Assembly (NCBI GenBank): GCA_963971535.1
Contig: OZ020598.1
Coordinates: forward strand, 98,949,674 to 99,013,673
Origin: Notolepis coatsorum
Lineage: Eukaryota > Chordata > Actinopteri > Aulopiformes > Paralepididae
Reading direction: 5' to 3'
DNA length: 64,000 bases
Part shown: piece after piece, positions 6,930 through 30,900 of the stretch
How the letters are laid out: every line of letters starts with the position of its first letter
Position numbering within the stretch: position 1 is the first letter of the stretch
Notes under the pieces: generated by a model
What the model was told of the DNA's origin: nothing
The model's input: only the letters and a program-made list of their open reading frames with translations
Databases searched by the model: none
Made by a program: the position numbers and the translations under genes

Positions 6930-7882
6930 TATACCAATACTTCTCGCTAACTTTGAACACAAATATTTTATATGGGGTTTCCAGCAGAGTTTGTGGTCTA
7001 TTAAGACCCCTAGAAACTTGTTTGTATGTACTCTCTAAATTTTTACATTATCAATTTTCAGTTGAGGATCAGTGATTATTTTACAATTTCCAAATATCAT
7101 GAAGTTTTTATTTTTTTTCAAATTTAGTGATAACTTATTTGTGTTGAACCAACCTTTTAATTTGTCCATTTCTATGTTTGCCACTTGTGAAGTGCCACAG
7201 AACAAGTGACACTTTTGGACAATGACATCCTGGGTCGTTCCTATATGACCAGTATAAATCTTTAAACTAAACTCTGGAAAGATAGCTCTATGATGGCTCT
7301 ACTTATAAAAAATGGAACTGAGCCTTTAAATGTCTCCATAGAAGGGGCCGGTGTCTGTGAAAAGGGAGTGAACCTGCGGAATGTGGGCCCCAGCAAAGGA
7401 GAGAGAGAGCTGTAAGATGTTAACCCTTTCAGACGAGGAGGGGATTAAGGGTTGAGGGTTGAAAGACGGAGTCCGGAAACTATTGAGGAGATCTTAAAAA
7501 AAGAAACTATATAACAATTAAATGTTTAATGTGTACAGTAAAAGTTTTCAAAATGGCATGCTTATAATTGACTGTCAATAGAGAATAATACTAAAAGAAT
7601 AATGTGTAAAAACTGTTTGTCTGGAGGGATTCTTTAAGAGATACTATGGATGGCTTCGTGCCCGGTACCATGTCACGTGATCCCCACAGACAAAGCAGTT
7701 GTCTGTTCTGAAGGAATAAGGGACTTTCTGTTACTTAAAACCACTAGGTAACGAGAAGTAACGTTAGTACCAAGAAGGAGGAGCTCATACGAATTACGTA
7801 TTGTACTCTGGTTTGCTAAAACAAAAATGACATCCCTGTGACTTCACTGTGTTTAGACCAATCGGAAATATTGTAAGATGGA

Positions 7883-7890
7883 TATAAAAG
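7883..7890 (+). promoter_or_regulatory. TATA box of the LTR promoter
   Basis: TATAAAAG in the LTR about 700 bp from its start. It would place the transcript start near 7915. The same box is repeated at 15816-15823 in the 3' LTR. Inferred from motif only. Confidence 0.6.
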
Positions 7891-8447
7891 GGACGGTTGC
7901 CCTTTCAAGGGCCAGACTTTTTTGAGAGATGGAGATCCTGCTGCCAGACACGGGGCACAAGCCGTGCATGATGAGATGTTCTGTTTTCTGCTTATTTTAA
8001 ACTGAATTGGGTGCTTTCCACTTCAGTCTCTTCTTGTAACTAGCTTTTTCTAATTAAAATTACCTCTTTATAAATATGATTTGTATCCTTTCTTCTGACC
8101 AGACGACCGGGTAAGCATGAAATGTGTTTTGCCTTGTAACTTCACCCTATTGCGTTTTGATTAATGATGTAAAAACTTATGCATTAAGGCTTTATCCATA
8201 TGGAGGCCTAAAGAGAAATATGTCCACCACGCGGTCCCGTATTGCGTTTTGATTAATGATGTAAAAACGTATGCATTAAGGCTTTATCCATATGGAGGCC
8301 TAAAGAGAAATATGTCCACCACGCGGTCCCGTATTGCATTTTTGATTAATGATGTAAAACTTTAGAAGTGTGGCTTTATCCCTACGGAGTAAAAGGAGAC
8401 ATAGGATTATGAATAGAATGAAAATGAATAAGTGGCTTTATCCCTAA

Positions 8448-8872
8448 CTATAATGGGATTATCAAGTAAAGCCATATAGTGATAATACGTGTACTGTATA
8501 ATGGGATTATCAAGTAAAGCCATATAGTGATAATACGTGTACTGTATCATGGGATTATCAAGTAAAGCCATACAGTGATAATATGTGTAAGTGGCTTTAT
8601 CCCTAGCTATAATGGTATTTTCAAGTAAAGCCATACAGTGATAATACGTGTACTGTATAATGGGATTATCAAGTAAAGCCATATAGTGATAATACGTGTA
8701 CTGTATCATGGGATTATCAAGTAAAGCCATACAGTGATAATATGTGTAAGTGGCTTTATCCCTAGCTATAATGGTATTTTCAAGTAAAGCCATACAGTGA
8801 TAATACGTGTACAGTATAATGGGATTATCAAGTAAAGCCATACAGTGATAATACGTGTAACGGATAAAGGAA
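8448..8872 (+). repeat. 48-bp tandem array inside the LTR
   Basis: About nine units of 48 bp carrying 'gggattatcaagtaaagcc' and 'gtgataatacgtgtactg'. They form a 144-bp higher-order pattern in which every third unit is the variant 'ggctttatccctagctataatgg'. An identical array lies at 16381-16805. Confidence 0.9.
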
Positions 8873-8911
8873 ATGGACCTCATCTAATTAAAGAGAGTCC
8901 GTCCCAGTGCA

Positions 8912-8917
8912 AATAAA
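8912..8917 (+). terminator. Polyadenylation signal in the LTR
   Basis: AATAAA (in aaataaaataaaag) located 230 bp before the LTR end; duplicate at 16845-16850. With the TATA box at 7883 it would give an R region of roughly 1 kb, which is unusually long. Confidence 0.5.
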
Positions 8918-9145
8918 ATAAAAGATTCCGCAACTTCAATCACTCGACCTAAGGTCGATGACTGACGGGGGTCGGAACGGTGCATTCGCTGTCTCTTGTC
9001 GGTCAGTGGTAACAACAACATTTTGTAGACTCGTTTGGTTCTGCGTGTCAACCACTTCACAGGACGCTGTTTGAGGTCAAGATAGGCAGACCAATGAGTT
9101 ATGAAGTTATCGATCTGACATAAGAGCAAGCGTGGGCATTCAACA

Positions 9146-9163
9146 TGGCGTCCCTGGGTGGGC
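9146..9163 (+). promoter_or_regulatory. Primer-binding site, tRNA-Asn
   Basis: tggcgtccctgggtgggc directly abuts the 5' LTR and is an exact 18-nt complement to the 3' end of vertebrate tRNA-Asn(GUU) including CCA (known sequence, recalled). Reverse transcription would be primed here. Confidence 0.9.
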
Positions 9164-9470
9164 ATTTATACTAACCAAAATAGGTGCTAAACGGCCGAAG
9201 AAGACAGGACTACTGTCAAAAGCCTCTGGAGTAAAATTAAATCACAGATTTGGCTAAAATTAAAGTAGAAAGCTCTACTGGCGACTCGAGTAGAAGGCTC
9301 TACTCGGGGATATCACAAATGAATAGAAAGCTCTATCTTGGTGATTAAAGCAACGTTTACTCACAACTAAAGGGTAACATAATGTTTATAGAGCTCTGGG
9401 GGGAGTTACAAGTGCAGCATAATTTCGTGCTTTGCCCACAGGAAGCGAACTGGAGAGCCAACTACCCAAG
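9164..9470 (+). other. Retroelement leader, 5' part
   Basis: Between the primer-binding site and the 85-bp array. Contains repeated 'agaaagctctac'/'agaaggctctac' motifs (9260-9340). No long coding frame recognised; presumed untranslated leader. Confidence 0.5.
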
Positions 9471-10430
9471 AGACACTGTTTGTAAGGTGGGGAGACTGGA
9501 TGTGAAGCGAAGTCAAAACGACCGTTCACAGAAAAGCGAGGGCTCCCTAGCCCAGAGACACTGTTTGTAAGGTGGGGAGACTGGATGTGAAGCGAAGTCA
9601 AAACGACCGTTCACAGAAAAGCGAGGGCTCCCTAGCCCAGAGACACTGTTTGTAAGGTGGGGAGACTGGATGTGAAGCGAAGTCAAAACGACCGTTCACA
9701 GAAAAGCGAGGGCTCCCTAGCCCAGAGACACTGTTTGTAAGGTGGGGAGACTGGATGTGAAGCGAAGTCAAAACGACCGTTCACAGAAAAGCGAGGGCTC
9801 CCTAGCCCAGAGACACTGTTTGTAAGGTGGGGAGACTGGATGTGAAGCGAAGTCAAAACGACCGTTCACAGAAAAGCGAGGGCTCCCTAGCCCAGAGACA
9901 CTGTTTGTAAGGTGGGGAGACTGGATGTGAAGCGAAGTCAAAACGACCGTTCACAGAAAAGCGAGGGCTCCCTAGCCCAGAGACACTGTTTGTAAGGTGG
10001 GGAGACTGGATGTGAAGCGAAGTCAAAACGACCGTTCACAGAAAAGCGAGGGCTCCCTAGCCCAGAGACACTGTTTGTAAGGTGGGGAGACTGGATGTGA
10101 AGCGAAGTCAAAACGACCGTTCACAGAAAAGCGAGGGCTCCCTAGCCCAGAGACACTGTTTGTAAGGTGGGGAGACTGGATGTGAAGCGAAGTCAAAACG
10201 ACCGTTCACAGAAAAGCGAGGGCTCCCTAGCCCAAAGACACTGTTTGTAAGGAGGGGAGACTGGATGTGAAGCGAAGTCAAAACGACCGTTCACAGAAAG
10301 GCGAACTGGATGGCTACCTAGCCCAAAGCTACGTGACACGCAGCCAAGACGACCGTTCACTGAATGTTCCCTGGATGGCTACCTAGCCCGAGGCTACGTG
10401 ACGCTAGCTAAAACGGCGTGTTCACTGGAA
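9471..10430 (+). repeat. 85-bp tandem array in the retroelement leader
   Basis: Ten copies start at 9471 and every 85 bp to 10236. The first nine are nearly identical; the last copies are degenerate and trail off by 10430. Each carries 'gagacactgtttgtaaggtg' and 'caaaacgaccgttcacag'. The array sits between the primer-binding site and gag, where a packaging signal would be expected. That role is only a guess. Confidence 0.95.
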
Positions 10431-10477
10431 CATGGGCTGACAAGCCAGGAGTGAACTGAATGCTAACTGGATGACAA

Positions 10478-10857
10478 CCTCCAGCTCCAGGAGACGCTGA
10501 GGCAGCAGGAGCGGGAGCTCACGGCCCTGAAGGGGGCGCTGAAGGACGAGGTGGCCACGCACGACCGGGAGATCCGAGACCCTCAGGGAGCAGTACAGCA
10601 CCGACATGGAGAGGCTGAGGAGCAGCATGGAGCAGGTGTCCCAGTCTCAGGCAGGTATCGAGGCAGAGCGGCAGCGTGTGAACACCTCGGTGCGCTCCCT
10701 GCAGCAGCAGCTAGAGGACTGCAGGGACGAGAGTGCCCACTGGATGGAGCAGTTCCACACCACCAGAGACGAACTGCGAAGCACCAAACAGGAGCTGCTG
10801 CAGTCTCGTCTGGAGAAGGAGGAGTTTGAGGAGGAGCTGAAGGAGCTGCAGGAGCGA
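10478..10857 (+). pseudogene. cgn (fragment): Captured host cingulin coiled-coil coding segment
   Basis: About 380 bp encode a heptad-rich segment that I recognise as part of the rod of cingulin, a tight-junction scaffold. Hallmarks are 'ERELTALKGALKDEVA', 'HW..QF', 'RSTKQELLQSRLEKEEFEEEL'. The known vertebrate protein has the same order (TALKGALKEEVA, AERQ, HW..F, LRATKQELLQ.RMEKEE.EEEL). A one-base insertion near 10572-10577 shifts the frame, so only the part from 10606 is fused to the gag-like ORF. No intron interrupts it, although this part of CGN normally spans several exons, which suggests an mRNA origin (inference). It lies wholly inside the LTR element. Confidence 0.85.
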
Positions 10858-13041
10858 GATCACTCCCTGCAGTGCATAAGCCCAGGACCACGTGGTCACG
10901 AGGAAGTGAGGCAAGCGAGAGCAACCTATATATCTCCCCGTGGTGAACACTCAGGGGTGAGAGTGACATCTACAAGGTCTCACAGACAATCACCAAACAT
11001 AACAGTCACTAACTACCCAGTCTGGACCGATAACTCTGATACACCATGGTCAATCCTCACCTTCACTGGACCGTCATTGACGAACTATGGTAGATGGGAA
11101 ACAAGCATGGTAACGGCAGGAGGCTCTTACTACCGGAACCTGAGGAAACAGGTAATGGAAAAAAGGACCAAAAAGCCCCTGAAACCAGGCAAGGCAGTAA
11201 TCACAGAGTGTGATTATGAGGTGTTTCACGCGGAGAAAATTGTCCATGTGACACTAAGTCAAGACCAATACAAGGAGATAGAGTCCTCACACATAAACTG
11301 GGACAGACTGGTGTCCCGTATAAAGGAACTACTGCAGAAAAGGGAAATCTATGCTGGCCACGGTACTAAGGACATGCCCTACCGACTAGCCATAAACCTG
11401 ATGTGGGGCAGGTCTCGAGGATATGGCCAAAGAGGCATATGGTTGGGGAAAGCCGTAATCAGCGCGATCTCAAGCCTAAGGAGTGCAGGGCACACGGAGA
11501 TCCGTCTCATGATGGAACCTAGGGACCATGAGTCAATAACCCTGGCCGTGGATAGAGCCGGGGAGGGTGAGGAAGACGAGGACGATGAGCCTGCATTGGT
11601 ACCTCTCACTCCCCCTCCGAACCCTAAGGGATCGGGACCTGTACCCAGGAAAGAAAGGTCCAACTCCCAGAACTCCTCCCGAGCAGCGGAGAGAGGGAGA
11701 TCATCCACACCCAGGAGACCGACAGTACCGTTCGAACCTGAAAAGGCGGAACCTGCGCGATCTCAGGCCAGGAGTATCCATAGACTTCTAGGCCGTCCCC
11801 CGGACTCAGGGGACGACCCAGCAAGTAGCGAACAGGAGTATACTGATCTAAATCAGGACTCAGGAATGGAGGGAGACCGGGATAGGTCAAGCTCCAGAGC
11901 ATCCTCCAAGTCTTCATCTCGATCAAGATCTAGGGAGAGAGTTCGGTACCCGAGGGGCGAACCTCCTAGACCTCGAAACAGGAGAGCGAAACCGGTCAAA
12001 CTGAGACCTATAGGCAAGGGGCCTACTCTGAAAGGCACCACCTTTCAGTCACCCTCGGGCTTGACCTGGAGCTCAGGATTGGAGGACGTCTCCGAAGAGA
12101 GTGAAGGAGACTTGGAAGGAAAGGAAACAGGGGATATTATGCCAGCATATCCCGTGAGATGGGGAACGGCTCAGGCCTTAGCCCGGTCACCCGTGGCAGA
12201 AAAAGTGTTGTCTCACCCTGGGGTAACAGAACCATACAAGCATGCACACTTACATGCAGGCTATGACATACTACGTGAACAGGTGTACAAGCTAGACAGG
12301 GCTATGGCTGAAATAGCCAGGAGAGAAAGAAACTGGTTGAACGAGGCCCCGTCCATAAGCCCCATCCGAGCCCTGAGACACAGCACAGAGGAACACCGAC
12401 CGGAAGTGAGCCCTCACTCCATACTAGCCCAATCTCCCGGAGACATTTACCGACCGAGAGGAAAGAGTTCACATACAGGCAGGAGTCTGCGTGACAGCAC
12501 CCAATATGGAGAAAGCAACAAAGCACAAGAATTGTTAAGCAAAACCCAAGTGCTCAAAAAACTGGCCCCAGAAATGCTTCGAGGGGAGACCCAGGCTGCT
12601 TATATCCATAAGTGTGCTCAGATTTTCCATGGGTCACCTCTCTATGATGACCCGGAGGCCGCTCGCATTTTGAGACACCTCAAAGGACTGGAGGTCCCCG
12701 AAGGGGCTTCAATGGCCCAGATGATGGAAATGGAAGTAAGAATCCCCGGTCAAGATCCAGGGGAAAATATGGTGGAGAAACTAATCCCACAGGTGCGAGA
12801 CGGGAGCTTGTCTCTCACTGTTGCAGCAGAATCAGTCATACGTGGAACGCCTAGGCAAAGATCAGGCTTACTGCTTGAAAAGCTATTCATCGGTGTACCA
12901 GGTGGTAACCGTCTTGCAGCCAAATGCGCAGCATGGTCCCGAGACCAGTTACGGACGGAATGCATGCTGTATGACCAAGTCAAAATGCTTTCTCAACACA
13001 AATACTGTAAAGATGTCCGTCTTTTCTCTAAACCAGAGTAG
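10606..13041 (+). CDS. gag: Gag-like polyprotein fused to cingulin coiled coil
   Basis: 811 codons. Residues 1-84 are cingulin coiled coil. Residues about 110-320 form a globular basic domain with a 'NLMWGRSRGYGQRG' stretch that I cannot assign. Residues 325-470 are acidic, then Ser/Arg- and Pro-rich ('SSSRASSKSSSRSRSRERV'), probably RNA-binding. Residues 545-811 are helical and capsid-like in position (inference). I see no major homology region and no CCHC knuckle. The start at 10606 is the first ATG in this frame after the frameshift; the native gag start may have been lost when the host segment was acquired. As the only long plus-strand ORF between primer site and 3' LTR, it is taken as gag. 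Confidence 0.7.
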   Translation: MERLRSSMEQVSQSQAGIEAERQRVNTSVRSLQQQLEDCRDESAHWMEQFHTTRDELRSTKQELLQSRLEKEEFEEELKELQERDHSLQCISPGPRGHEEVRQARATYISPRGEHSGVRVTSTRSHRQSPNITVTNYPVWTDNSDTPWSILTFTGPSLTNYGRWETSMVTAGGSYYRNLRKQVMEKRTKKPLKPGKAVITECDYEVFHAEKIVHVTLSQDQYKEIESSHINWDRLVSRIKELLQKREIYAGHGTKDMPYRLAINLMWGRSRGYGQRGIWLGKAVISAISSLRSAGHTEIRLMMEPRDHESITLAVDRAGEGEEDEDDEPALVPLTPPPNPKGSGPVPRKERSNSQNSSRAAERGRSSTPRRPTVPFEPEKAEPARSQARSIHRLLGRPPDSGDDPASSEQEYTDLNQDSGMEGDRDRSSSRASSKSSSRSRSRERVRYPRGEPPRPRNRRAKPVKLRPIGKGPTLKGTTFQSPSGLTWSSGLEDVSEESEGDLEGKETGDIMPAYPVRWGTAQALARSPVAEKVLSHPGVTEPYKHAHLHAGYDILREQVYKLDRAMAEIARRERNWLNEAPSISPIRALRHSTEEHRPEVSPHSILAQSPGDIYRPRGKSSHTGRSLRDSTQYGESNKAQELLSKTQVLKKLAPEMLRGETQAAYIHKCAQIFHGSPLYDDPEAARILRHLKGLEVPEGASMAQMMEMEVRIPGQDPGENMVEKLIPQVRDGSLSLTVAAESVIRGTPRQRSGLLLEKLFIGVPGGNRLAAKCAAWSRDQLRTECMLYDQVKMLSQHKYCKDVRLFSKPE

Positions 13042-13774
13042 AGAGGACGAAAGAATTTGTAATCTATTTCATGCAAAGGGGATTTCCTGACAGCTACCAT
13101 CTGGTAGGTTAGCACCTGTACCAACCATATCAGCTGCGTGAGATGTACACTCACCAGCGCCTATGGATAAAAATTGAGACTCTGCAAACTCTCATCAAGC
13201 TTAGCACCTTGACGCGGGGGGACAGAGCGAGCATCAGGGTCTCTATATCCGACGGGCCTATCAGATTTGTGGGGACTCGGAAGCTTCAGCATACAGGACG
13301 CTGTGGTGCTTGGGCGGCCGAGTCACTGGTTTATAGGTCTGTCAAAACGGATTGGAGGTTCTGGGGCTTAAAACATTCGTGAGTTGGGCTTTATGCTAAT
13401 TGAATAGGTATCAAAAGCCGAAAGAATATGAACTGAAATAACTGCGGTCAGGGGCCTCTGGAGTAAAATTTATTACAGATTTGAGTTAAAACCTTACTCA
13501 AGTGTGATCTTATCAGCAAGCAATCCTCTCCAACCAAGACTCCTCCTAAGTGCTCGAGATCTGGAACAATGAGTGACGTAGAGGTCTGCAAAGCGCAGCA
13601 GACAGCCTAAGAGGTAAAAAATCTATCAGGAACAAGAGAGGGTTCATAAGAAACCACTTGAAGTGGCGTTTACTCGCGACTAATAGGGCTAGGGAGCCCT
13701 AAAGTCACTTGAACTTGAAGTAACTAAATGCTTACTTAAAGTCAGAACTTAAGTAGAAAAAACTCTACTTTGTG
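13042..13774 (+). other. Retroelement interior without recognisable pol
   Basis: Where protease and reverse transcriptase should follow gag there are only short frames (such as 13143-13382) with no motif that I recognise. Degenerate AG-rich sequence resembling the leader ('gcctctggagtaaaat', also near 9222) recurs at about 13453, hinting at rearrangement. Confidence 0.5.
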
Positions 13775-13965
13775 AATAGCAGGCTGAAATAGCCATTGCG
13801 AATAGCAGGCTGAAATAGCCATTGCGAATAGCAGGCTGAAATAGCCATTGCGAATAGCAGGCTGAAATAGCCATTGCGAATAGCAGGCTGAAATAGCCAT
13901 TGCGAATAGCAGGCTGAAATAGCCATTGCGAGCAGGCTGAAATAGCCATTGCGAACAGGACGAGG
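13775..13965 (+). repeat. 26-bp tandem array
   Basis: About seven units of 26 bp, each with 'aatagcaggctgaaatagcc', the last shortened. It directly precedes the integrase zinc-finger relic. Confidence 0.92.
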
Positions 13966-13967
13966 CT

Positions 13968-14120
13968 ACTCACATGATCAGACAGGTATATGATAACCTT
14001 GGACATGCCGGAAGTAGGAGGATGTTGGTATACCTGAGAACTAACAACATTCTCATACATAAAGCCAAACAAAGAGCGATAACAGTCCGAAAGGCCTGTG
14101 AACAATGTGCGCTGGTAAAG
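13968..14120 (+). pseudogene. Relic of integrase N-terminal zinc-binding domain
   Basis: 51 codons read 'HMIRQVYDNLGHAGSRRM' then, after a helical stretch, 'ACEQCALVK'. This is the HHCC integrase zinc-finger layout (LGH.G ... C..C). The first His of the usual motif appears to be Tyr in VYDNLGH. Nothing of the catalytic DDE core follows. It is the only pol remnant found in the element. Confidence 0.65.
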
Positions 14121-14969
14121 GTGCGCTGGTAAAGGGACAAAACCTGAACCAGTGCCGCATTCTTAGACAGGGGGGGGGGGGTCCCCCGGAGTCAGCGGAC
14201 GACGCAGCGAATGGCAAGAAGGAATATACTGACTCAGGTCAGAAATCGGAAATGGAGGAAGACCGGGATAGGTCAAGCTCCAGAGCATCCTCAAGGTCCT
14301 CATCTAGACCTCCCAGACCTCCCAGACCTCCCAGACCTCCCAGACCTCCTAGACCTCCCAGACCGGACAGAGAGACATCGGCCTGGACCCAGGTTACAGG
14401 GCGACGAGAGCCCTGAATGGACCTGAAAGAGAGCAAAGGAATGAGTCCTCTGTGGACTGTATCTGTGATGTCCTGCGAGGCCTACGGACAGGGTCACAAG
14501 ACCAGGCCAACCACACTTCAATAGAGGAATGCTGCTACAATTCTCGGGGATCCGTGGGGGTCGCCCGAGAAGTGACAAATCAACCTACCTCAAACTATGG
14601 GAGAGATCCAAGAGGTCAGAGGGGGCGACCCCAAGATGACCAAGATGACCAAGATGACCAAGGTGACCAAGATGACCAAGGTGACCAAGATGACCAAGAC
14701 GACAACAGCCTGGGTGCATCGGCCGGGAACAACAGATGCAAGTCTTCCCGCCGGATACCACGCAACAACGTGACCCCTATCCTGTCGAGCCGTCCAGCCA
14801 GGGAACAACAGATGCAAGTCTTCCCGCCGGCTACCAGGGTAACAAGGTACCGAGATGGCAGAGGGGGTGTGGAGAGTCACAGCCACGTGACCCCACAATC
14901 GCCATCTCGTCCCCCAGTACAGACGCTATTAAGACAATGGAAAATGACCGCCCAGAATGACAGAGTGGG
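14121..14969 (+). other. Degenerate gag-like and low-complexity region
   Basis: Frame 14105-14416 repeats the gag Ser/Arg region ('EDRDRSSSRASSRSSSR', compare gag near 11871-11940), then passes into a 9-bp repeat 'cctcccaga' coding Arg-Pro-Pro (14315-14367). A second 9-bp repeat 'gaccaagat' coding Asp-Gln-Asp lies at 14636-14705. A duplicated 'gcaagtcttcccgccgg' (about 14737 and 14814) follows. It reads as a duplicated, decayed copy of part of gag, not a working gene. Confidence 0.6.
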
Positions 14970-15118
14970 TGTGAAGTGCCACAGAACAAGTGACACTTTT
15001 TGACAATGACATCCTGAGTCGTTCCAATATAGCCGTATATACCTATTTTTCACATGTAATTATATGCTTCATTATTCAATTGATGATGGACAATGATCTC
15101 CCAGAATGACAGAGTGGG
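14970..15118 (+). repeat. Partial LTR start duplicated just before the 3' LTR
   Basis: The first ~70 bp of the LTR plus its upstream 'cagaatgacagagtggg' occur at 14953-15040 and again at 15102, a 149-bp tandem shift. This duplicates the 3' priming/LTR junction. Confidence 0.8.
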
Positions 15119-17078
15119 TGTGAAGTGCCACAGAACAAGTGACACTTTTGGACAATGACATCCTGGGTCGTTCCTATATGACCAGTATAAATCTTTAAAC
15201 TAAACTCTGGAAAGATAGCTCTATGATGGCTCTACTTATAAAAAATGGAACTGAGCCTTTAAATGTCTCCATAGAAGGGGCCGGTGTCTGTGAAAAGGGA
15301 GTGAACCTGCGGAATGTGGGCCCCAGCAAAGGAGAGAGAGAGCTGTAAGATGTTAACCCTTTCAGACGAGGAGGGAATTAAGGGTTGAGGGTTGAAAGAC
15401 GGAGTCCGGAAACTATTGAGGAGATCTTAAAAAAAGAAACTATATAACAATTAAATGTTTAATGTGTACAGTAAAAGTTTTCAAAATGGCATGCTTATAA
15501 TTGACTGTCAATAGAGAATAATACTAAAAGAATAATGTGTAAAAACTGTTTGTCTGGAGGGATTCTTTAAGAGATACTATGGATGGCTTCGTGCCCGGTA
15601 CCATGTCACGTGATCCCCACAGACAAAGCAGTTGTCTGTTCTGAAGGAATAAGGGACTTTCTGTTACTTAAAACCACTAGGTAACGAGAAGTAACGTTAG
15701 TACCAAGAAGGAGGAGCTCATACGAATTACGTATTGTACTCTGGTTTGCTAAAACAAAAATGACATCCCTGTGACTTCACTGTGTTTAGACCAATCGGAA
15801 ATATTGTAAGATGGATATAAAAGGGACGGTTGCCCTTTCAAGGGCCAGACTTTTTTGAGAGATGGAGATCCTGCTGCCAGACATGGGGCACAAGCCGTGC
15901 ATGATGAGATGTTCTGTTTTCTGCTTATTTTAAACTGAATTGGGTGCTTTCCACTTCAGTCTCTTCTTGTAACTAGCTTTTTCTAATTAAAATTACCTCT
16001 TTATAAATATGATTTGTATCCTTTCTTCTGACCAGACGACCGGGTAAGCATGAAATGTGTTTTGCCTTGTAACTTCACCCTATTGCGTTTTGATTAATGA
16101 TGTAAAAACTTATGCATTAAGGCTTTATCCATATGGAGGCCTAAAGAGAAATATGTCCACCACGCGGTCCCGTATTGCGTTTTGATTAATGATGTAAAAA
16201 CTTATGCATTAAGGCTTTATCCATATGGAGGCCTAAAGAGAAATATGTCCACCACGCGGTCCCGTATTGCATTTTTGATTAATGATGTAAAACTTTAGAA
16301 GTGTGGCTTTATCCCTACGGAGTAAAAGGAGACATAGGATTATGAATAGAATGAAAATGAATAAGTGGCTTTATCCCTAACTATAATGGGATTATCAAGT
16401 AAAGCCATATAGTGATAATACGTGTACTGTATAATGGGATTATCAAGTAAAGCCATATAGTGATAATACGTGTACTGTATCATGGGATTATCAAGTAAAG
16501 CCATACAGTGATAATATGTGTAAGTGGCTTTATCCCTAGCTATAATGGTATTTTCAAGTAAAGCCATACAGTGATAATACGTGTACTGTATAATGGGATT
16601 ATCAAGTAAAGCCATATAGTGATAATACGTGTACTGTATCATGGGATTATCAAGTAAAGCCATACAGTGATAATATGTGTAAGTGGCTTTATCCCTAGCT
16701 ATAATGGTATTTTCAAGTAAAGCCATACAGTGATAATACGTGTACAGTATAATGGGATTATCAAGTAAAGCCATACAGTGATAATACGTGTAACGGATAA
16801 AGGAAATGGACCTCATCTAATTAAAGAGAGTCCGTCCCAGTGCAAATAAAATAAAAGATTCCGCAACTTCAATCACTCGACCTAAGGTCGATGACTGACG
16901 GGGGTCGGAACGGTGCATTCGCTGTCTCTTGTCGGTCAGTGGTAACAACAACATTTTGTAGACTCGTTTGGTTCTGCGTGTCAACCACTTCACAGGACGC
17001 TGTTTGAGGTCAAGATAGGCAGACCAATGAGTTATGAAGTTATCGATCTGACATAAGAGCAAGCGTGGGCATTCAACA
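15119..17078 (+). repeat. 3' LTR
   Basis: 1,960 bp, matching 7186-9145 throughout at constant offset, including the 92-bp duplication, the 48-bp array and AATAAA. Preceded by a weak purine-rich tract (agaatgacagagtggg). Followed by CCACT and the resumed LINE. Confidence 0.95.
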
Positions 17079-17094
17079 CCACTTCTAAAAGCTG

Positions 17095-18180
17095 CTAAAG
17101 GTCATCCCCCGAACATAAAATGTTTGTGTCATCCGCAAAGACAACAAGTTTCAGTATGTTAGATACTTTACATATATCATTTATGTATAAAATGAACAAT
17201 TTGGGTCCCAATACTGACCCATGTGGAACACCACAGGTAATGTTTAAGCATTGTGACTTGTGCTGACCCATCAGAACAAATTGCTGCCTGTTACTAATAT
17301 AGCTTTTCAGCCAGTCTAGAGCAACCCCTCTGACACCAAACCTGTCCATCTTTTTCAGTAAAATCTCATGATCTATTGTATCAAAAGCTTTTTTTAGGTC
17401 AATAAATATTCCTAATACATATTTCTTTCTCTCTATACCGTCAGTTATTTCCTCTACAAGCTCCATTAATGCCATGGAGGTAGATCTAGCTGTTCTAAAA
17501 CCATACTGGCTGTCCATTAGGAGATTATGTTTTTCAATGAAAGTGTCTAATCTTGCAACATATAGTTTTTCGAGTATCTTTGAGAACTGTGATAGCAGGG
17601 ATACCGGTCTATAATTGGTAAACAAATGCTTGTCTCCAGCTTTAAATAATGGTATAACCTTTGCAATTTTCATTTTTTGAGGGAATGCTCCCATTTTGAA
17701 CGACAAATTGAATATATGAGATAGTGGCTCCACAACTCCTTGAATAATATTTTTCACCAGAGACACATCAATGTCATCCCCATCTGTGGAGGTTTTATTC
17801 ATGCATTTGTTTACCATCTCAATAATGTCCTCTTTCTCCACAGATCCCAGAGATATTGAAGCAGGGTTTCTTTCTCCACAATCTTCCACCGCAAAACTCT
17901 TCCCAGTGTTGACTATTTCATTGGCTAGTTTTGGTCCCACATCAACAAAAAAGTTGTTGAACCCATCCACTACTTCATTTATAAGAGTAATCTTTCTGTC
18001 CTTTTCTGTAAAATAGTCAGGGTAAGCTAGGTTGGTTGGTTTATTTCTAATAATACTATTTAATATGTCCCATATTCCTTTAACATAATTTTTATTTGTA
18101 TCCAATAATTTGGTATAATAATCCTTCTTGCATTTCCTCATAATACTAATTAGTTTGTTTTTGTATTTTTTATATTTCAA
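17095..18180 (-). pseudogene. Reverse transcriptase of the split LINE
   Basis: 361 codons on the minus strand. RT signatures: 'NYRPVSLLSQFSKILEK', 'QYGFRTARSTSMAL', 'GIFIDLKKAFDTIDH', 'CGVPHGSVLGPKLF' and catalytic 'VVFADDTNI'. Upstream residues 'LYRIFIKDKTKEAELKYKKYKN' continue in frame to about 18237. The frame is closed at 17095 by TAG where a CAG codon is expected, and the ORF resumes beyond the LTR element at 7185. Truncated and interrupted, so inactive. It belongs to the CR1/L2/Jockey group of LINEs. Confidence 0.85.
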
Positions 18181-18237
18181 CTCGGCTTCTTTTGTTTTGT
18201 CTTTAATAAATATCCTATATAAAGTATTCTTTTTTTT

Positions 18238-18650
18238 GCATGGAGGGGGGAAACAGGGGGTGATGAGGCCTGTTTGTCGAACCGGGCATAGAAGTGGTTG
18301 AGCTTGTCAGGGAGGTCCGGGTCATCATCTGTAGGGGGGGGGGGGGGTTTGTAGTTTGTTATTTCCTGTAGGTTTTTCCAGACTGCTCTGGGATTGTTGG
18401 CAGCGAATTGATCTTCCAGTTTTTTTGCATGATTTGATTTGGCCTGCCTGATGGCAGACCGTAGTTTATATTTTGCAGATTTGTACTGCTCTTTATTTCC
18501 ATTTATGTAGGCTGTGTTCTTTTCTTTACGTAGTGATGCTATGTCCTTGTTGAACCAGGGTTTATTGTTTCCATGTGACGTGACGGTCTTAGTGGGGATG
18601 CACATCTCCACACAAAACCGGATATAATTATGACGTCACGGTTTTGGCGC
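18238..18650 (-). mobile_element. L2/Maui-type LINE fragment upstream of RT
   Basis: Frame 18611-18237 reads 'KPWFNKDIASLRKEKNTAY', 'AIRQAKSNHAKKLEDQF', 'NNPRAVWKNLQEITNYK' and 'LPDKLNHFYARFDK': the linker between endonuclease and RT in fish L2 elements. It joins directly, without a visible 3' end, to the split LINE at 18237. It lies about 100 bp past the b4galnt stop codon, so it may form part of the transcript's 3' end. Confidence 0.75.
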
Positions 18651-21900: not shown

Positions 21901-24900
21901 GGGAATGAGACCTATTGATACTAACTACTATTACTATAATACAATGCTAGACACTGAAAAAAGCCATTTAAACATTTTTCTTTCACCTTTAAGATTTACC
22001 AAAAATAAGAATTTATCGGAAAAATGCTAATTCTATCTCTCTTTTATCGTAAAACCAAGAGGAAATGACTAAATCCAGATTTAACACTGCCATTGGAAAG
22101 GGGATCTTATTCCCTATCCATAGATGTATGATTTGGCCATAATAAGGTCAAGGTCAAGTTCAAGGTCAAATATGAATTCATAATTAAAATGGATTATAAT
22201 TTATTACTGTATCTACAAATCCTTCTGTTTAATCATCTTCCCTTCATTAGTTAGCTTTGATCTTTTGTAAACTTGATCTCAAGAAGGTGCTGAATGAGCT
22301 CAATGAGCGTAATCAAAAGAACCTCAATGTCTATGGTGTTATTCACCGGTAAAGATGCAAAAGAAAATCATAATTTATATTCTCCTTTGTTTCATCACAA
22401 TTTACTCAAGCCTAGTAACAGACACAATATTTCTGACACTGGGAATACATACCCCCAGGTCCCTAGATGTTCCTAGAATGTGCAAATTGACCTTGTAGAA
22501 GTGGAGCAATCTTCCATTTACTTGGGCATGTACCTTTAGGCAGAATTTCTGAAAATAGGTTAATTAATCAGTTAATTCCCCAAAAAATGTTGAATACACA
22601 AATGTGGCTGGGGGAACTGATTAACTCAGCATGAATGGACTATAGGTCAATAAAAACAATACACAAAAAAAAATCGATTCTAACTTTTTCAAATCGATGC
22701 AGTTGAAAATAAATGTCACATTAGGATCGATGCATCGTTACACCCCTATTTAATACCATTTCATGTTGGCTCATCCTACCTGAAAGATACTTTAATACCA
22801 TTTACTAGTTGGCTCCCCCTACCTGAATGATCCTTTAATAACATTTTCCAGTTGGCTCCTCCCACCTGAACAATACTTTGATATAATTTACTATTTGGCT
22901 CCACCCACGTGAATGAGCAACTCGCTGTAGATTGGGGTCAAACCCCACCCTGCGCACAGTGTCGGTACGACCCAGGAAGAAGTTGACTACTCCACCAGTC
23001 AAAAAGCATTTGGAGAAACCAGGCAGCGTGTGGAACCTTCCGCCTGACTTCCTCTTCAAACAGCCTCCCACCTCTGGATCTCCTTCCTCATATTCCATTG
23101 AAAAGTAGAACCGGTTTCGACCTACAGAACCCCCTACCTGAGGAAGAGAGAAAGAGAGAGGGGGATGGAGAGACAGAGACTTGGGTCTATATATACAGTA
23201 GACTTTGATCTATATACAGTAGACTAGGGTCTATATACAGTAGACTAGGGTCTATACAATAGACTAGGGTCTATATACAGTAGACTAGGGTCTATACAGT
23301 AGACTAGGGTCTCTATAACGTAGACTAGTGTCTTTACAGTAGACTAGGGTCTATATACAGTAGACTAGGGTCTATATACAGTAGACTAGGGTCTATACAG
23401 TAGACTAGGGTCTATATACAGTAGACTAGTGTCTTTACAGTAGACTAGGGTCTATATACAGTAGACTAGGGTCTATATAACGTAGACTAGGGTATATACA
23501 GGCATGCAGTGGTGGTCAAACGCAGTTAAACGCCGTTTAGGCTACGTCACTGAGGGAGATTGTTTTGATTCAGTTTTCTTTAATGAAATCTGTTCTCTCA
23601 AATCCCAGCTAGAGAACCTCGTCGCGCCGTATACCCCGGCCGGCACTTATCACCTAGACTTTGCATAATAATAGGATACTGCGACAACCAAAATACAAGC
23701 CCTGTAGGTGGGGGGCTGCTTGATCTCCCGACTGGAAGGATGAGACAAGTTGTGCTTCAGTCTGAAGGAAACTGTCCTTCAGTAAACTAACTCTAAGTTA
23801 CATTGTTAATTTAGTTTGTATTTACTTTTCTAGTTTAAGTTAATTCAATTAAAGAAATTGTAACTACAATTACATTTAAAACATTGTTATGCATAATAAT
23901 CATCTGTTCTGTGCGCAACCGAGGGAACATGTATGCGCGTGCGCTGGAGCGCGCGTGCATGTGGCGTTTGGCCTACTGTCATATTACGACTGCACCACTG
24001 GGTATATATACAGTAGACTAGGGTCTATATACAGTAGACTAGGGTCTATACAGTAGACTAGGGTCTATATACAGTAGACTAGGGTCTATATAGTAGACTA
24101 GGGTCTATATACAGTAGACTAGGGTCTATATACAGTAGACTAGGGTCTATATACAGTAGACTAGGGTCTATATACAGTAGACTAGGATATATACAGTAGA
24201 CTAGGGTCTATATACAGTAGACTTTGATCTATATACAGTAGACTAGGGTCTATATACAGTAGACTAGGGTCTATATACAGTAGACTAGGGTCTATATACA
24301 GTAGACTTTGATCTATATACAGTAGACTAGGGTCTATATACAGTAGACTAGGGTCTATACAGTAGACTAGGGTCTATATACAGTAGACTAGGGTCTATAT
24401 ACAGTAGACTAGGGTCTATATACAGTAGACTAGGGTCTATACAGTAGACTAGGGTCTATATACAGTAGACTAGGGTCTATATACAGTAGACTAGGGTCTA
24501 TATACAGTAGACTAGGGTCTATATACAGGAGACTAGGGTCTATACAGTAGACTAGGGTCTATATACAGTAGACTAGGGTCTATATACAGTAGACTAGGGT
24601 CTATACAGTAGACTAGGGTCTATATACAGTAGACTAGGGTCTATACAGTAGACTAGGGTCTATATACAGTAGACTAGGGTCTATATACAGTAGACTAGGG
24701 TCTATACAGTAGACTAGGGTCTATATACAGTAGACTATGGTCTATATAGTAGACTAGGGTCTATATACAGTAGACTAGGGTCTATATACAGTAGAGGGTC
24801 TATATACAGTAGACTAGGGTCTATACAGTAGACTAGGGTCTATATACAGTAGACTAGGATATATACAGTAGACTAGGGTCTATATACAGTAGACTAGGGT

Positions 24901-27900
24901 ATATATAGTAGACTAGGGTCTATATACAGTAGACTAGGGTCTATATACAGTAGACTAGGGTCTATATAGTAGACTAGGGTCTATATACAGTAGACTAGGG
25001 TCTATATACAGTAGATGGTCTATATACAGTAGACTAGGGTCTATATACAGTAGACTAGGGTCTATATAGTAGACTAGGGTCTATATACAGTAGAGGGTCT
25101 ATATACAGTAGACTAGGGTCTATATACAGTAGACTAGGGTCTATATAGTAGACTAGGGTCTATATACAGTAGACTAGGATATATACAGTAGACTAGGGTC
25201 TATATACAGTAGACTAGGGTCTATATACAGTAGACTAGGATATATACAGTAGACTAGGGTCTATATACAGTAGACTAGGATATATATACAGTAGACTAGG
25301 GTCTATATACAGTAGACTAGGGTCTATATACAGTAGACTAGGATATATATAAAGTAGACTAGGGTCTATATACAGTAGACTAGGGTCTATATACAGTAGA
25401 CTAGGGTCTATATACAGTAGACTAGGATATATACAGTAGACTAGGGTCTATATACAGTAGACTAGGGTCTATATACAGTAGACTAGGGTCTATATACAGT
25501 AGACTAGGATATATATACAGTAGACTAGGATATATACAGTAGACTAGGATATATACAGTAGACTAGGATATATACAGTAGACTAGGGTCTATATACAGTA
25601 GACTAGGGTCTATATACAGTAGACTAGGGTCTATACAGTAGACTAGGGTCTATATACAGTAGACTAGGATATATACAGTAGACTAGGGTCTATATACAGT
25701 AGACTAGGGTCTATATACAGTAGACTAGGGTCTATATACAGTAGACTAGGGTCTATACAGTAGACTAGGGTCTATATACAGTAGACTAGGATATATACAG
25801 TAGACTAGGGTCTATATACAGTAGACTAGGGTCTATATAGTAGACTAGGGTCTATATACAGTAGACTAGGGTCTATATACAGTAGACTAGGGTCTATATA
25901 CAGTAGACTAGGGTCTATATACAGTAGAGGGTCTATATACAGTAGACTAGGGTCTATATACAGTAGACTAGGGTCTATATAGTAGACTAGGGTCTATATA
26001 CAGTAGAGGGTCTATATACAGTAGACTAGGGTCTATATACAGTAGACTAGGGTCTATATAGTAGACTAGGGTCTATATACAGTAGACTAGGGTCTATTTA
26101 CAGTAGACTAGGATATATACAGTAGACTAGGGTCTATATACAGTAGACTAGGATATATATACAGTAGACTAGGGTCTATATACAGTAGACTAGGGTCTAT
26201 ATACAGTAGACTAGGATATATATAAAGTAGACTAGGGTCTATATACAGTAGACTAGGGTCTATATACAGTAGACTAGGATATATACAGTAGACTAGGGTC
26301 TATATACAGTAGACTATGGTCTATATACAGTAGACTAGGGTCTATATACAGTAGACTAGGATATATATACAGTAGACTAGGATATATACAGTAGACTAGG
26401 ATATATACAGTAGACTAGGATATATACAGTAGACTAGGGTCTATATACAGTAGACTAGGGTCTATATACAGTAGACTAGGGTCTATATACAGTAGACTGG
26501 GGTCTATATACAGTAGACTAGGGTCTATATACAGTAGACTAGGGTCTATATAGTAGACTAGGGTCTATATACAGTAGACTAGGGTCTATTTACAGTAGAC
26601 TAGGGTCTATATACAGTAGACTAGGGTCTATATACAGTAGACTAGGGTATATATACAGTAGACTAGGATATATATACAGTAGACTAGGGTATATATACAG
26701 TAGACTAGGGTCTATATACAGTAGACTAGGATATATATACAGTAGACTAGGGTCTATATACAGTAGACTAGGATATATATACAGTAGACTAGGGTCTATA
26801 TACAGTAGACTAGGGTCTATATACAGTAGACTATGGTCTATATACAGTAGACTTTGATCTATATACAGTAGACTAGGGTCTATATACAGTAGACTAGGAT
26901 ATATATACAGTAGACTAGGGTCTATATACAGTAGACTAGGATATATACAGTAGACTAGGGTCTATATACAGTAGACTAGGGTCTATATATAGTAGACTAG
27001 GATATATATACAGTAGACTAGGGTCTATATACAGTAGACTAGGGTCTATATACAGTAGACTAGGATATATACAGTAGACTAGGATATATATACAGTAGAC
27101 TAGGGTCTATATACAGTAGACTAGGATATATATACAGTAGACTAGGGTCTATATACAGTAGACTAGGATATATATACAGTAGACTAGGGTCTATATACAG
27201 TAGACTAGGGTCTATATAACGTAGACTAGGATATATATAAAGTAGACTAGGGTCTATATACAGTAGACTAGGGTCTATATACAGTAGACTAGGGTCTATA
27301 TACAGTAGACTAGGATATATATACAGTAGACTAGGGTCTATATACAGTAGACTAGGGTCTATATACAGTAGACTAGGGTCTATATACAGTAGACTAGGGT
27401 CTATATACAGTAGACTAGGATATATATACAGTAGACTAGGGTCTATATACAGTAGACTAGGGTCTATATAACGTAGACTAGGATATATATACAGTAGACT
27501 AGGGTCTATATACAGTAGACTAGGGTCTATACAGTAGACTAGGGTCTATATACAGTAGACTAGGGTCTATATAAAGTAGACTAGGGTCTATATACAGTAG
27601 ACTATGGTCTATATACAGTAGACTAGGGTCTATATACAGTAGACTAGGGTCTATATACAGTAGACTAGGGTATATACAGTAGACTAGGGTCTATATACAG
27701 TAGACTAGGGTCTATATAACGTAGACTAGGATATATATACAGTAGACTAGGGTCTATATACAGTAGACTAGGGTCTATATAACGTAGACTAGGATATATA
27801 TACAGTAGACTAGGGTCTATATACAGTAGACTAGGGTCTATACAGTAGACTAGGGTCTATATACAGTAGACTAGGGTCTATATAAAGTAGACTAGGGTCT

Positions 27901-30900
27901 ATATACAGTAGACTAGGGTCTATATACAGTAGACTAGGGTCTATATACAGTAGACTAGGGTCTATATACAGTAGACTAGGGTATATACAGTAGACTAGGG
28001 TCTATATACAGTAGACTAGGGTCTATATAACGTAGACTAGGATATATATACAGTAGACTAGGGTCTATATAAAGTAGACTAGGGTCTATATAAAGTAGAC
28101 TAGGGTCTATATACAGTAGACTAGGGTCTATATACAGTAGACTAGGGTCTATATACAGTAGACTAGGGTCTATGGGTGTATTTCTCACCACATCTAGTTC
28201 TGGTGTGGCTTCCATCACCTCCACCATCTTCTCTATCTTGGTGTTTGCAGTAAACAGGAAGTCATCATCCACCCACAGGAAGTACTTGGTGGTAACCTGG
28301 GATATGGCCAGGTTCCTGCCAGCGAACCAGCCCTGAGGGAGGAATGACGTTTCCAGGTTAAAAGGGTGTCTTGATTTTTAACATGTTAGTCAGGCAAGTG
28401 CTACCGGAGTCTGTACAGAGAGACTCAAAAGGAGCTTCTCTCCCCAGGCCATCAGGATGCTCAATGACTCTATGCAACACTAACCCATCCATCTACATTC
28501 ATTGTGCACACATCCACATGCACACACTCACTTTAAACATTCACCTCTAACATTCACTTTAGACACTTAAACACTTTTTAACACTACACCGTATTTTATC
28601 TATTTATTACTAAAAGATTTGCACTACCTCTCTACCTCATTTTAGCATTTTGTTTGCATTTTGTACTTTAGTTTTGTATATTGTATATTTTGTATAGTGT
28701 TTGGTCTATTCTTCTACTTTTTTTCTGTATGAAGCACAATCTTAGGGGGCTCATGCAGAACCAAGCATTTCACTGTAATGCGCATGTACCTATGAATCGT
28801 TTTCAAATAAACGCTAGATTATCGATAGTATATGTGTACTTATGCACGCTAGAGAAGGGGGCTGAAAAATCGATTATCTATGACCTGGTCAGCGCTAACG
28901 TCATATACAGACGTACACACATAGGGGACACGTTGTGAAAAATGTGAAAAAAACATCTGATTACCCCAAGACTGGTAAAATAGATTCCTTACCTCACATC
29001 AGATGTTCTGCAAAAAGATTATTCCAATTCCTGATCGCCATTCCAAATATCGATTGTGTTTATTGATCCAACGATCCAACCTCGAAACACATATCACGCT
29101 GCTCTGAGGGTCCCCAATGAATGCAATCGTCTCGGGTTACATGCCTGAGAAGTAAAATGTGGAATCCGGGTTTTTTCCTCCCCATGGATTTCCATTGAAT
29201 CCAATCCAATGGGTGCATTACCATCCGGGAGACGATAGGGGGCGGTATTTGCCCTTTTTGAGGTCAGAGCCAGTCCCAATGATAACGTGAGGCTGGATTG
29301 ATGAAAAATGTATGGATATCGCTAATAAAAGCAATAACGATTAAATAACGAGATTTCTCGTTGTTGGCACTCAGCGCATGGTGGCCAACAATGAAATTTC
29401 TCGTTGTTGGCATGGCACTCAAAGTGTTAAGGAGCTCACGATTCATCAGAAAATGCCAAAATGTTGCGCAATTCAGAAATAGGTCAAAATCGAGATATTG
29501 GCAATTTTGAGTTATTTGAAATGGTCTCTATCGGTCTCCTTATTTGCTAAACGTAATACAACTTGTAAATATTTTATTGTTACATAGTCCAACAGTATTA
29601 TTTCCCTCACTGCAACTCTCCTAGCACAGAATGCTGCGTCGACGCTAGAGAGGGCACTGTTGTCATGCAGATTGGACCCATTCAGTAAATTATTGTCGGG
29701 GAACGAAATCTCAACAGATTCTTGAAGGTGAGGATTTCCCCTTTAATTTATATAATAGTCTCATTCAGCAAGTGCCAACAGGGACGCTAGGGGAGCTCTC
29801 GGTAAAACGCTCATGTCATTTGAAGAAATGTTCAGATCGCCCGGTCTTGAAAAATAATTCTACCCAGGAATAAAGCTGCAGCATGCATTTTGAAACGCCG
29901 ATGTAAGTAGTGTTTTTAATAAATTATAGGCAGTTGTTGGACATATTATAGCATTTGTTCAGTTTCCGACAGTTTATAGTGTTTGTGAGAATGTTTTTGC
30001 AGAGATTTTGGTAATATTTTCCGTTCCAAAAATTTTTCTAAAGCAGCGATGCGAGTGGAAAAATAGCCAGGAAAAAGGGCTCATGTATGTCGCGCGTGCT
30101 AGTCCCCTGTGCGCCGGCGCTCGTGCCCGAGGAATCATTGATGTATTTTATTTAGCGTATGCAATGTTTTCAAATAGCCACATTGCTGTTATTAGTTTAT
30201 TCATTACTGGGTCATATTCTATATATAATATATTTAATTTGATCAGCACAAAACGGACGATGAGTGTGACCGGGTCGGTGCGGCCCACATGCACAGAGAT
30301 GAAGCTTCCTGCCGGCAAGCATTCAGTAGCCCAGCTAGCTCTGAGGCTCGCTGCCGCCTCCTCGTAGCTGGCTCGTAGCTAACGTCGAGCTAGCCCATGA
30401 ACCAGAGCCCCCTCCCACCCTTGTTTACCCAGAGAAGAGGCTTCGTAGAGAGGCAGAGAGTCATGGTGGAAGACGAGGCTCGAGGAAGAGAACAGGGTAC
30501 GTTTGAATAAAAATTTTAACACACACATTAAATTATTACATAATGTGTAATAGTAAAATAAAAAAATGAATAAATCAGGGTCTAAATTATAATCAATTAT
30601 TTTTCGTGATATTTTGTTTCATTCATTCATTCATAACATTTCAAGTTTCAAGTTTCTTTAATAGTTGTCATACAGAAGTACAGAATACTTTTATACAAAA
30701 TGCTTCTTACTGTTACGCTCCTGAGACTGTGCTAGACAAGATAAGTATGAAATAAAAGAAATTATTATATTATATATTAAATTATATTTTTTAAACATCC
30801 CCAACGCTGCAACACCCCCATTCCTCCCAGGTGTCAGGCTCCTCATTCGCTTCCATTCATTTTGGGGACCATGTTTAAATATCATCCTTCTGAAGTATAA

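Follow-up and report, generated by a model that had tools for sequence, protein, structure and literature searches.

A spliced fragment of host cingulin at the front of a gag-like protein in a young, multicopy LTR element of the fish Notolepis coatsorum

Acute transforming retroviruses carry gag-onc fusions, in which spliced cellular sequence is joined in frame with gag; they are replication-defective and are helped in trans. Non-autonomous long terminal repeat (LTR) elements (LARD, TRIM and similar) have no pol, retain intact LTRs and a primer site, and are present in high copy number. The Gag protein of foamy viruses has an N-terminal coiled coil. Among the endogenous retroviruses (ERVs) of crocodilians, CrocERV29 and CrocERV31 contain captured mRNA of KIT-ligand and nectin3 respectively (passages of PMC4299795). 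Teleost retroviruses with cellular genes (CNPase, macro domain) were reported by Basta et al. (2009, J Virol), as cited in a passage of PMC4977317, and a passage of PMC8672886 describes zebrafish ERV-like elements with an interior replaced by cellular genes. Here we describe an LTR element of the fish Notolepis coatsorum that has acquired part of the mRNA for the tight-junction protein cingulin (gene cgn). It is located in a stretch of 64,000 nucleotides (assembly GCA_963971535.1, contig OZ020598.1, positions 98,949,674 to 99,013,673, forward strand) that we term the window; coordinates without a contig refer to it. Literature retrieved with ‘cingulin’ and ‘endogenous retrovirus’ contains nothing on such a fusion, as judged from titles and the starts of abstracts in a part of that literature.

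Our reading, to which we assign a probability of about 0.85, is that spliced cgn sequence was captured by a macrodomain-gag LTR element, that it replaced the N-terminus of gag, and that the product spread recently as a non-autonomous element. The spliced origin of the cgn sequence, the replacement of the gag N-terminus compared with homologues, the in-frame fusion and the recent multiplication are all observed. Starting at its 5′ end, the fusion comprises:

10467..10493, + strand: where the captured cgn probably starts (LDDNLQLQE), the TLRQ part following after an internal deletion, placed from the order in relatives
10478..10605, + strand: 5′ part of the captured cgn, mostly out of frame with the open reading frame (ORF), from the match to Lampris cingulin and comparison with the relative on contig C48
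10606..10857, + strand: coiled coil of the captured cgn, 84 codons that share the frame of the gag-like ORF, from homology, host exons and heptads
10606..13041, + strand: 811-codon ORF, with the cgn coiled coil at residues 1–84, a linker, a probable macrodomain fold at ∼128–320, an RS-rich stretch and a helical, capsid-like part at ∼635–804

The identity of the segment is clear. The 811-aa protein matches 239 proteins in the protein database at E <= 0.001, with E down to 1.6e-35 for teleost cingulins, and of the 120 matches listed nearly all are named cingulin. Translated 10479–10577 is identical to residues 499–529 of Lampris cingulin at 26 of 31 positions, and 10579–10857 to residues 532–623 at 86 of 92. 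The match stops at ..LKELQER, and from there on the sequence is gag-like, the 84 cgn codons sharing their frame with 727 further residues. The first-pass annotation, made from the letters alone, had seen a cingulin-like segment within an LTR element with its last 84 codons in frame with a 727-residue gag-like protein, and both observations hold, the LTR element being complete.

At about 10577 the window has one extra base relative to its relative on contig C48, and the sequence around this base is identical in 29 of 30 sequences compared. As a consequence the first ∼40 captured codons are out of frame with the rest, and the first in-frame ATG is at 10606. Further upstream, LDDNLQLQE is immediately preceded by TAA and is followed by TLRQ, as if ∼75–80 codons had been lost between two similar coiled-coil stretches. 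This suggests that the capture starts ∼11 bases before 10478 and that an internal stretch is missing from the form in the window.

The host cgn gene lies on the minus strand of contig C46 in the 3.42-Gb genome. It was sought with a query consisting of the cgn part of the element followed by the next host residues, compared at the level of protein and not base by base. All of the genome searches scored the best candidates only (150 of 3811 for the host exons, 150 of 198 for the upstream and long forms; 40 of 126 and 40 of 825 in two others), so that copy numbers are lower bounds, and ‘without cgn’ signifies without a listed cgn locus. The captured segment covers three or more exons of the gene, with these pieces:

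C46:79476530-79476751, − strand: host cgn exon piece, query residues 12–85
C46:79475879-79475986, − strand: host cgn exon piece, query residues 102–137
C46:79473464-79473583, − strand: host cgn exon piece, query residues 129–168

The gaps between these pieces are about 0.54 and 2.3 kb, while in the elements the same sequence is uninterrupted; query residues 86–101 are found in none of the gene matches. Within 10606–10857 a host exon-exon junction falls at about 10777–10800, and the interval of about 10648–10695 contains one or more others. Two further pieces of the gene upstream (C46 79484586–79484714 and 79484164–79484298) are 287 bases apart in the gene and contiguous at C48:644950 and C1:103921943, where longer forms of the capture are found. 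Pieces that are separated in the gene and contiguous in the elements indicate that the source was spliced cgn mRNA. The route through a spliced mRNA, proposed in the first-pass annotation, is thus supported, and the cgn locus that it suggested looking for in the same genome has introns where the elements have none. Stop codons occur within the match in two of the three exon pieces (TAG, TGA) and in one of the two upstream pieces (TGA), which we take to be matches running into the intron. The captured exons are absent from the host-locus stretches L082, L083 and L085. A query based on the C48 form matches the cgn exon of the same genome at 96%. Weaker cgn matches at C7:41.17-41.20M look like a paralogue.

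The 3′ boundary of the capture is not an exon edge. The last C46 exon piece continues through VSTMKQQIPDPSH, and the capture therefore ends inside an exon, which points to a switch or recombination inside the exon and not to a simple splice fusion.

The nature of the remaining ORF emerges from relatives without cgn. Neither the 811-aa ORF nor its relatives match a gag family in Pfam, and the ORF as a PDB sequence query returns nothing at E <= 1. It is homologous to four unnamed ENA proteins, P0001 and P0121–P0123, which are recovered from the protein database with residues 505–800; residues 95–811 returned nothing among the best candidates scored, which is no evidence of absence. Scanning IMG/VR with P0001 gave zero loci. 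P0121–P0123 are 1382–1401 aa long with a Pfam Macro domain at about 173–295, and the window ORF aligns with P0122 from residues 116 and 583 onward respectively (40% over 734 columns). Since the alignment begins at residue ∼580 of the relatives, cgn occupies the place of ∼580 residues that include a macrodomain. The window ORF thus shares homology with the macrodomain-gag lineage over the remaining gag and has no Macro match in Pfam. It also lacks the basic C-terminal ∼100 residues of P0121–P0123. P0001, which is possibly incomplete, begins at window residue ∼184–188. The earlier description of a fusion to gag is correct as to the in-frame junction, and is to be amended in that the segment replaces a Macro-bearing N-terminus of ∼580 residues and is not an addition. 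The converse case, a segment missing from cgn and shared by all relatives of the element, does not apply; the segment is in cgn and is absent from P0121–P0123.

Structure prediction adds a second macrodomain. In Foldseek the AlphaFold 2 (AF2) model of the ORF, of low overall confidence, matches solved macrodomains, with macroH2A1.1 first (probability 1.00, E 7.0e-5), followed by PARP9 and PARP14. Residues ∼128–320 (about 10987–11565) are probably this second, sequence-cryptic macrodomain, their limits taken from the multi-strand part of the model since the aligned range is not printed by Foldseek. P0121–P0123 align across this part too, in addition to their Pfam-visible Macro domain, so that a tandem-macrodomain gag is probable in the relatives. 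The capsid-like part gave no Foldseek match at E <= 0.001. Residues 2–84 are modelled as one helix with low confidence, and the heptad pattern of the cgn part is intact, with hydrophobic residues at 16 of 24 a/d positions.

Full-length relatives resembling P0123 are also present in the genome of N. coatsorum. The best 34 scored, out of 16 848 candidates, match P0123 residues 53–1383, in one piece in 19 cases and in two pieces in 15. The frame is exactly 1305 codons in 30 of the 34, and a few matches have one stop. None coincides by eye with a listed leader match or cgn locus, and no helper element was found among the listed loci.

The fusion lies within a young LTR element of 9.9 kb (7186–17078), both LTRs of which are 1960 bp long:

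7181..7185: 5′ copy of the 5-bp target-site duplication CCACT, from the sequence of the flanks
7186..9145, + strand: 5′ LTR, 1960 bp, TG...CA, with 3 mismatches to the 3′ LTR (7443, 7951, 8269)
9146..9163, + strand: primer binding site TGGCGTCCCTGGGTGGGC, adjoining the 5′ LTR (a single match against 0 expected)
9462..10304, + strand: leader minisatellite, 85-bp unit × 9.9, from repeat analysis
14181..14308, + strand: remnant second copy (81%) of the gag piece 11795–11922, in a rearranged 3′ internal region (repeat family D8)
14937..15030, + strand: second copy of the boundary between internal region and LTR start, 94% like 15086–15179 (repeat family D7)
15108..15118, + strand: candidate polypurine tract, short and purine-rich, beside the 3′ LTR, from reading of the sequence
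15119..17078, + strand: 3′ LTR, from the alignment of the LTR pair
17079..17083: 3′ copy of the target-site duplication CCACT, from the sequence of the flanks

The paired LTRs with TG..CA ends, the target-site duplication and the tRNA primer site beside the 5′ LTR are those of an LTR retroelement. The sequence TGGCGTCCCTGGGTGGGC presumably fits the 3′ end of tRNA-Asn, and its first 12 bases occur after AACA in the 5′ stretches of six of ten other copies. At the leader minisatellite (9462–10304) element copies align only with shifts and at lower identity. The + strand between the LTRs has just two ORFs of 120 aa or more, 10606–13041 (811 aa) and 14452–15003 (183 aa), neither of which matches pol or env in Pfam. 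Because no pol or env ORF was found between the LTRs, the element is probably not autonomous and would be mobilized in trans.

Not counting the host gene, the cgn piece is present at no fewer than 119 loci (best 150 of 287 candidates scored). These are called element loci by extension from the minority that was fetched and seen within an element. An open frame of at least 828 codons is found at 92 of the 119, and the frame from the ATG corresponding to 10606 is exactly 811 codons in 15 of the 22 fetched copies that are long enough (L009, L010, L012–L031). When loci are picked instead by their gag DNA, cgn is present in 30 of 30, the window copy among them, and in one of these it has lost 45 bases; of 29 such loci, 22 have an ORF of exactly 811 codons and another has 826, and one yielded no start motif. 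A 35-base pattern from the capsid part occurs 349 times at up to three mismatches, compared with 0 for the reversed control. Of the exact occurrences 100 are listed; a listed cgn locus lies within 6 kb of 83 of them and is lacking near the other 17.

Sister elements without listed cgn are present too. The best 40 of 1055 leader candidates match at 98–100%, with a listed cgn locus within 4 kb in 12 cases and none in 28, and these 28 have no exact capsid-part match within 8 kb among the 100 listed. Some cgn-free leader matches are paired 6.5–8 kb apart, like tandem elements sharing an LTR (C23:88234126/88242098, C35:60655063/60661727, C7:1175384/1181849).

The copies are young. In nine of ten other copies the LTRs of a pair are 99.1–100% alike over the aligned part (394–2234 bases), three pairs being cut by the ends of the fetched stretches; in the tenth (L036/L037) nothing but short tandem repeats matched. 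Duplications of 5 bp, read by eye, flank seven of the ten (GGAGG, GATCC, GTTTC, ACCGC, CTACT, CTGTG and GTAAC). L032/L033 has no matching duplication, and in two other pairs it is not legible. The LTR ends diverge among copies (mean 64% over the last 320 bases in seven copies), whereas cgn and gag are on average at least 99.5% identical (L032–L051 compared with L012–L031). This contrast suggests recombination between LTR lineages or fast turnover of the LTRs.

Three forms of the capture can be distinguished. At C48:645100-647300 (L084) a longer cgn part is in frame with gag and has no extra base; 2114 aligned bases are 98.4% identical to the window, a deletion of 9 bases lies close to the end of cgn, and the frame is 928 codons with one TAA within the match. 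A similar sequence at C1:103921943-103922617 extends nine residues further and is interrupted (TGA, TAA). At C7:90669140-90669565 query residues 21–166 are read in one frame of 857 codons, with a single TAA inside the matching stretch; a short form that predates the base insertion should look like this. The C48 and C7 frames seem to start at the TAA that precedes LDDNLQLQE, by codon arithmetic (∼928 and 857) and not from the letters themselves. From these comparisons the order of the forms would be long, then short, then shifted.

The events may then be arranged as follows. A macrodomain-gag LTR element of fish would have picked up an internal piece of spliced host cgn mRNA, most likely by co-packaging of the mRNA and template switching during reverse transcription. 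The piece would have replaced the N-terminal ∼580 residues of gag, including the Macro domain, and would later have been trimmed and then shifted by one base. The product would be a non-autonomous element encoding a protein with the order cgn coiled coil, cryptic macrodomain, RS-rich stretch and capsid-like helices. Its recent spread has taken it to some hundred places, probably with a relative supplying reverse transcriptase and integrase in trans.

Whether the coiled coil contributed to this spread is a separate matter, on which the variation among copies bears. Substitutions were counted in the sample picked by gag DNA (29 fetched loci and the window, 30 sequences; L052, the window copy itself, was left out) under a model with no CpG correction that ignores the kinship of copies. 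The cgn codons have 1 synonymous and 11 non-synonymous changes (p = 0.20 against neutrality), and the rest of the ORF has 33 and 48, a departure from neutrality (p = 0.019) that corresponds to mild constraint. The two parts differ with p = 0.05, cgn in the direction of less constraint. Since the rest of the ORF is mildly constrained, the ORF is probably used. Among copies picked by cgn (23 sequences, with the shorter L001–L008 and the window copy L011 dropped) the corresponding counts are 1 and 2 for cgn, and 29 and 47 for the rest. An apparent higher conservation of cgn than of gag was rejected as an artefact of picking copies by their cgn match; in the gag-picked copies the diversity of cgn (0.0042) is inside the range of the flanking ORF parts (0.0020–0.0053).

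A putative role of the coiled coil in driving gag assembly is plausible, and it may more specifically allow the shortened gag to dimerize now that its original N-terminus is gone, a suggestion that we regard as tentative. Purifying selection on the captured cgn codons is not seen in the 30 sequences, and the data give no support to a conserved function of the coiled coil. We doubt the stronger proposal, in which the element is a satellite with a host coiled coil swapped in, its hybrid protein, which also bears the cryptic second macrodomain, co-assembling through the cellular module and parasitizing a macrodomain-gag helper, and in which the coiled coil made the element win. If that were true, the hybrid could pair with cingulin itself, tying element particles to junctional or cytoskeletal complexes.

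The best-surviving alternative concerns this last step only. Here the capture is real, and the cgn codons are an inert passenger, fixed by chance in the founder of a non-autonomous element that spread fast. We consider the odds of this about even. The 1 and 11 changes in cgn reveal no constraint, the spread went on with the first ∼40 captured codons out of frame, and the 92 of 119 open frames are compatible with youth alone, the LTRs differing by 0–0.9% in nine of ten pairs. Yet the in-frame fusion is kept in all three forms (C48 long, C7 short and unshifted, and the window type), and the mild constraint on the rest of the ORF indicates that the protein is probably used.

Capture by the element itself is also to be compared with insertion of a processed pseudogene of cgn, made by a long interspersed nuclear element (LINE) and then carried along. 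Intronless sequence would be expected in this case as well, and reverse transcriptase ORFs that we take to be of LINE type lie nearby. However, the piece is internal to the mRNA, beginning near codon 420 (Lampris numbering) and ending in mid-exon at codon 623, with no 3′ part of cgn and no poly(A) run after it in the window; the C48 form has neither the cgn 3′ untranslated region nor poly(A), and the piece coincides with the lost N-terminus of gag. We therefore judge a pseudogene improbable. An assembly artefact joining cgn to an LTR element, one of the outcomes named in the first-pass annotation as fatal to its claim, has nothing in its favour and can be dismissed because the segment recurs on many contigs, at 119 or more loci other than the host gene, with ten examined copies differing in LTRs and flanks. 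Equally negligible is an origin within the element of some generic coiled coil unrelated to cgn, for although coiled coils look alike and the Pfam coiled-coil matches are weak and below cut-off, the identity to Lampris cingulin (86/92), the E of 1.6e-35 and the 96% match of the C48-based query to the cgn exon of its own genome are those of cgn.

Elsewhere in the window 51256–56360 and 58200–61430 are two related stretches with reverse transcriptase and recombinase-like ORFs, presumably of DIRS type. Stretches 17095–18611, 33149–34520, 45956–47651 and 39036–40765 contain what we take to be LINE-type reverse transcriptase ORFs and a gypsy-type integrase ORF. A 21-bp satellite array of about 203 copies occupies 24000–28173.

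The gene that gave the sequence, the longer and intermediate forms and the relatives lacking cgn occur with this recent capture in one genome, so that the succession of capture, trimming and spread can be followed. The element poses the question of whether gag can do with a cellular coiled coil in place of its own front part. Its relatives show a family of fish retroelements in which macrodomains form part of the gag-like ORF itself, one of the domains being recognizable by fold alone.

Retroelements are known to capture host genes, but a gag-like protein that newly begins with a coiled coil from a tight-junction protein is unusual. As in the gag-onc fusions, spliced cellular sequence is in frame with gag and help in trans is probable; gag is normally N-terminal there, whereas here the cellular part is N-terminal, and the element is in the germline and in high copy. 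The element resembles LARD and TRIM in the missing pol, the intact LTRs and primer site and the high copy number, and differs from them in carrying a long chimeric ORF. The coiled coil is that of host cingulin, unlike that of foamy virus Gag, with which we claim no kinship. The zebrafish elements also have cellular sequence between LTRs in a fish genome, but other genes are named and no gag fusion is described in the passage concerned (PMC8672886). The teleost retroviruses are likewise fish retroelements with a macro domain, and the relatives of the cgn element may belong near them; on the description given in part of PMC4977317 they are set apart in that they have additional ORFs, whereas here macrodomains lie within the gag-like ORF and the cingulin variant has lost one of two. 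In the CrocERVs, as here, spliced host mRNA was captured and multiplied with the ERV, nectin3 replacing env; but according to the passages of PMC4299795 these are whole ORFs of cell-surface proteins or ligands, whereas the cgn element has an internal coiled-coil fragment, in frame, as the N-terminus of its gag-like protein.

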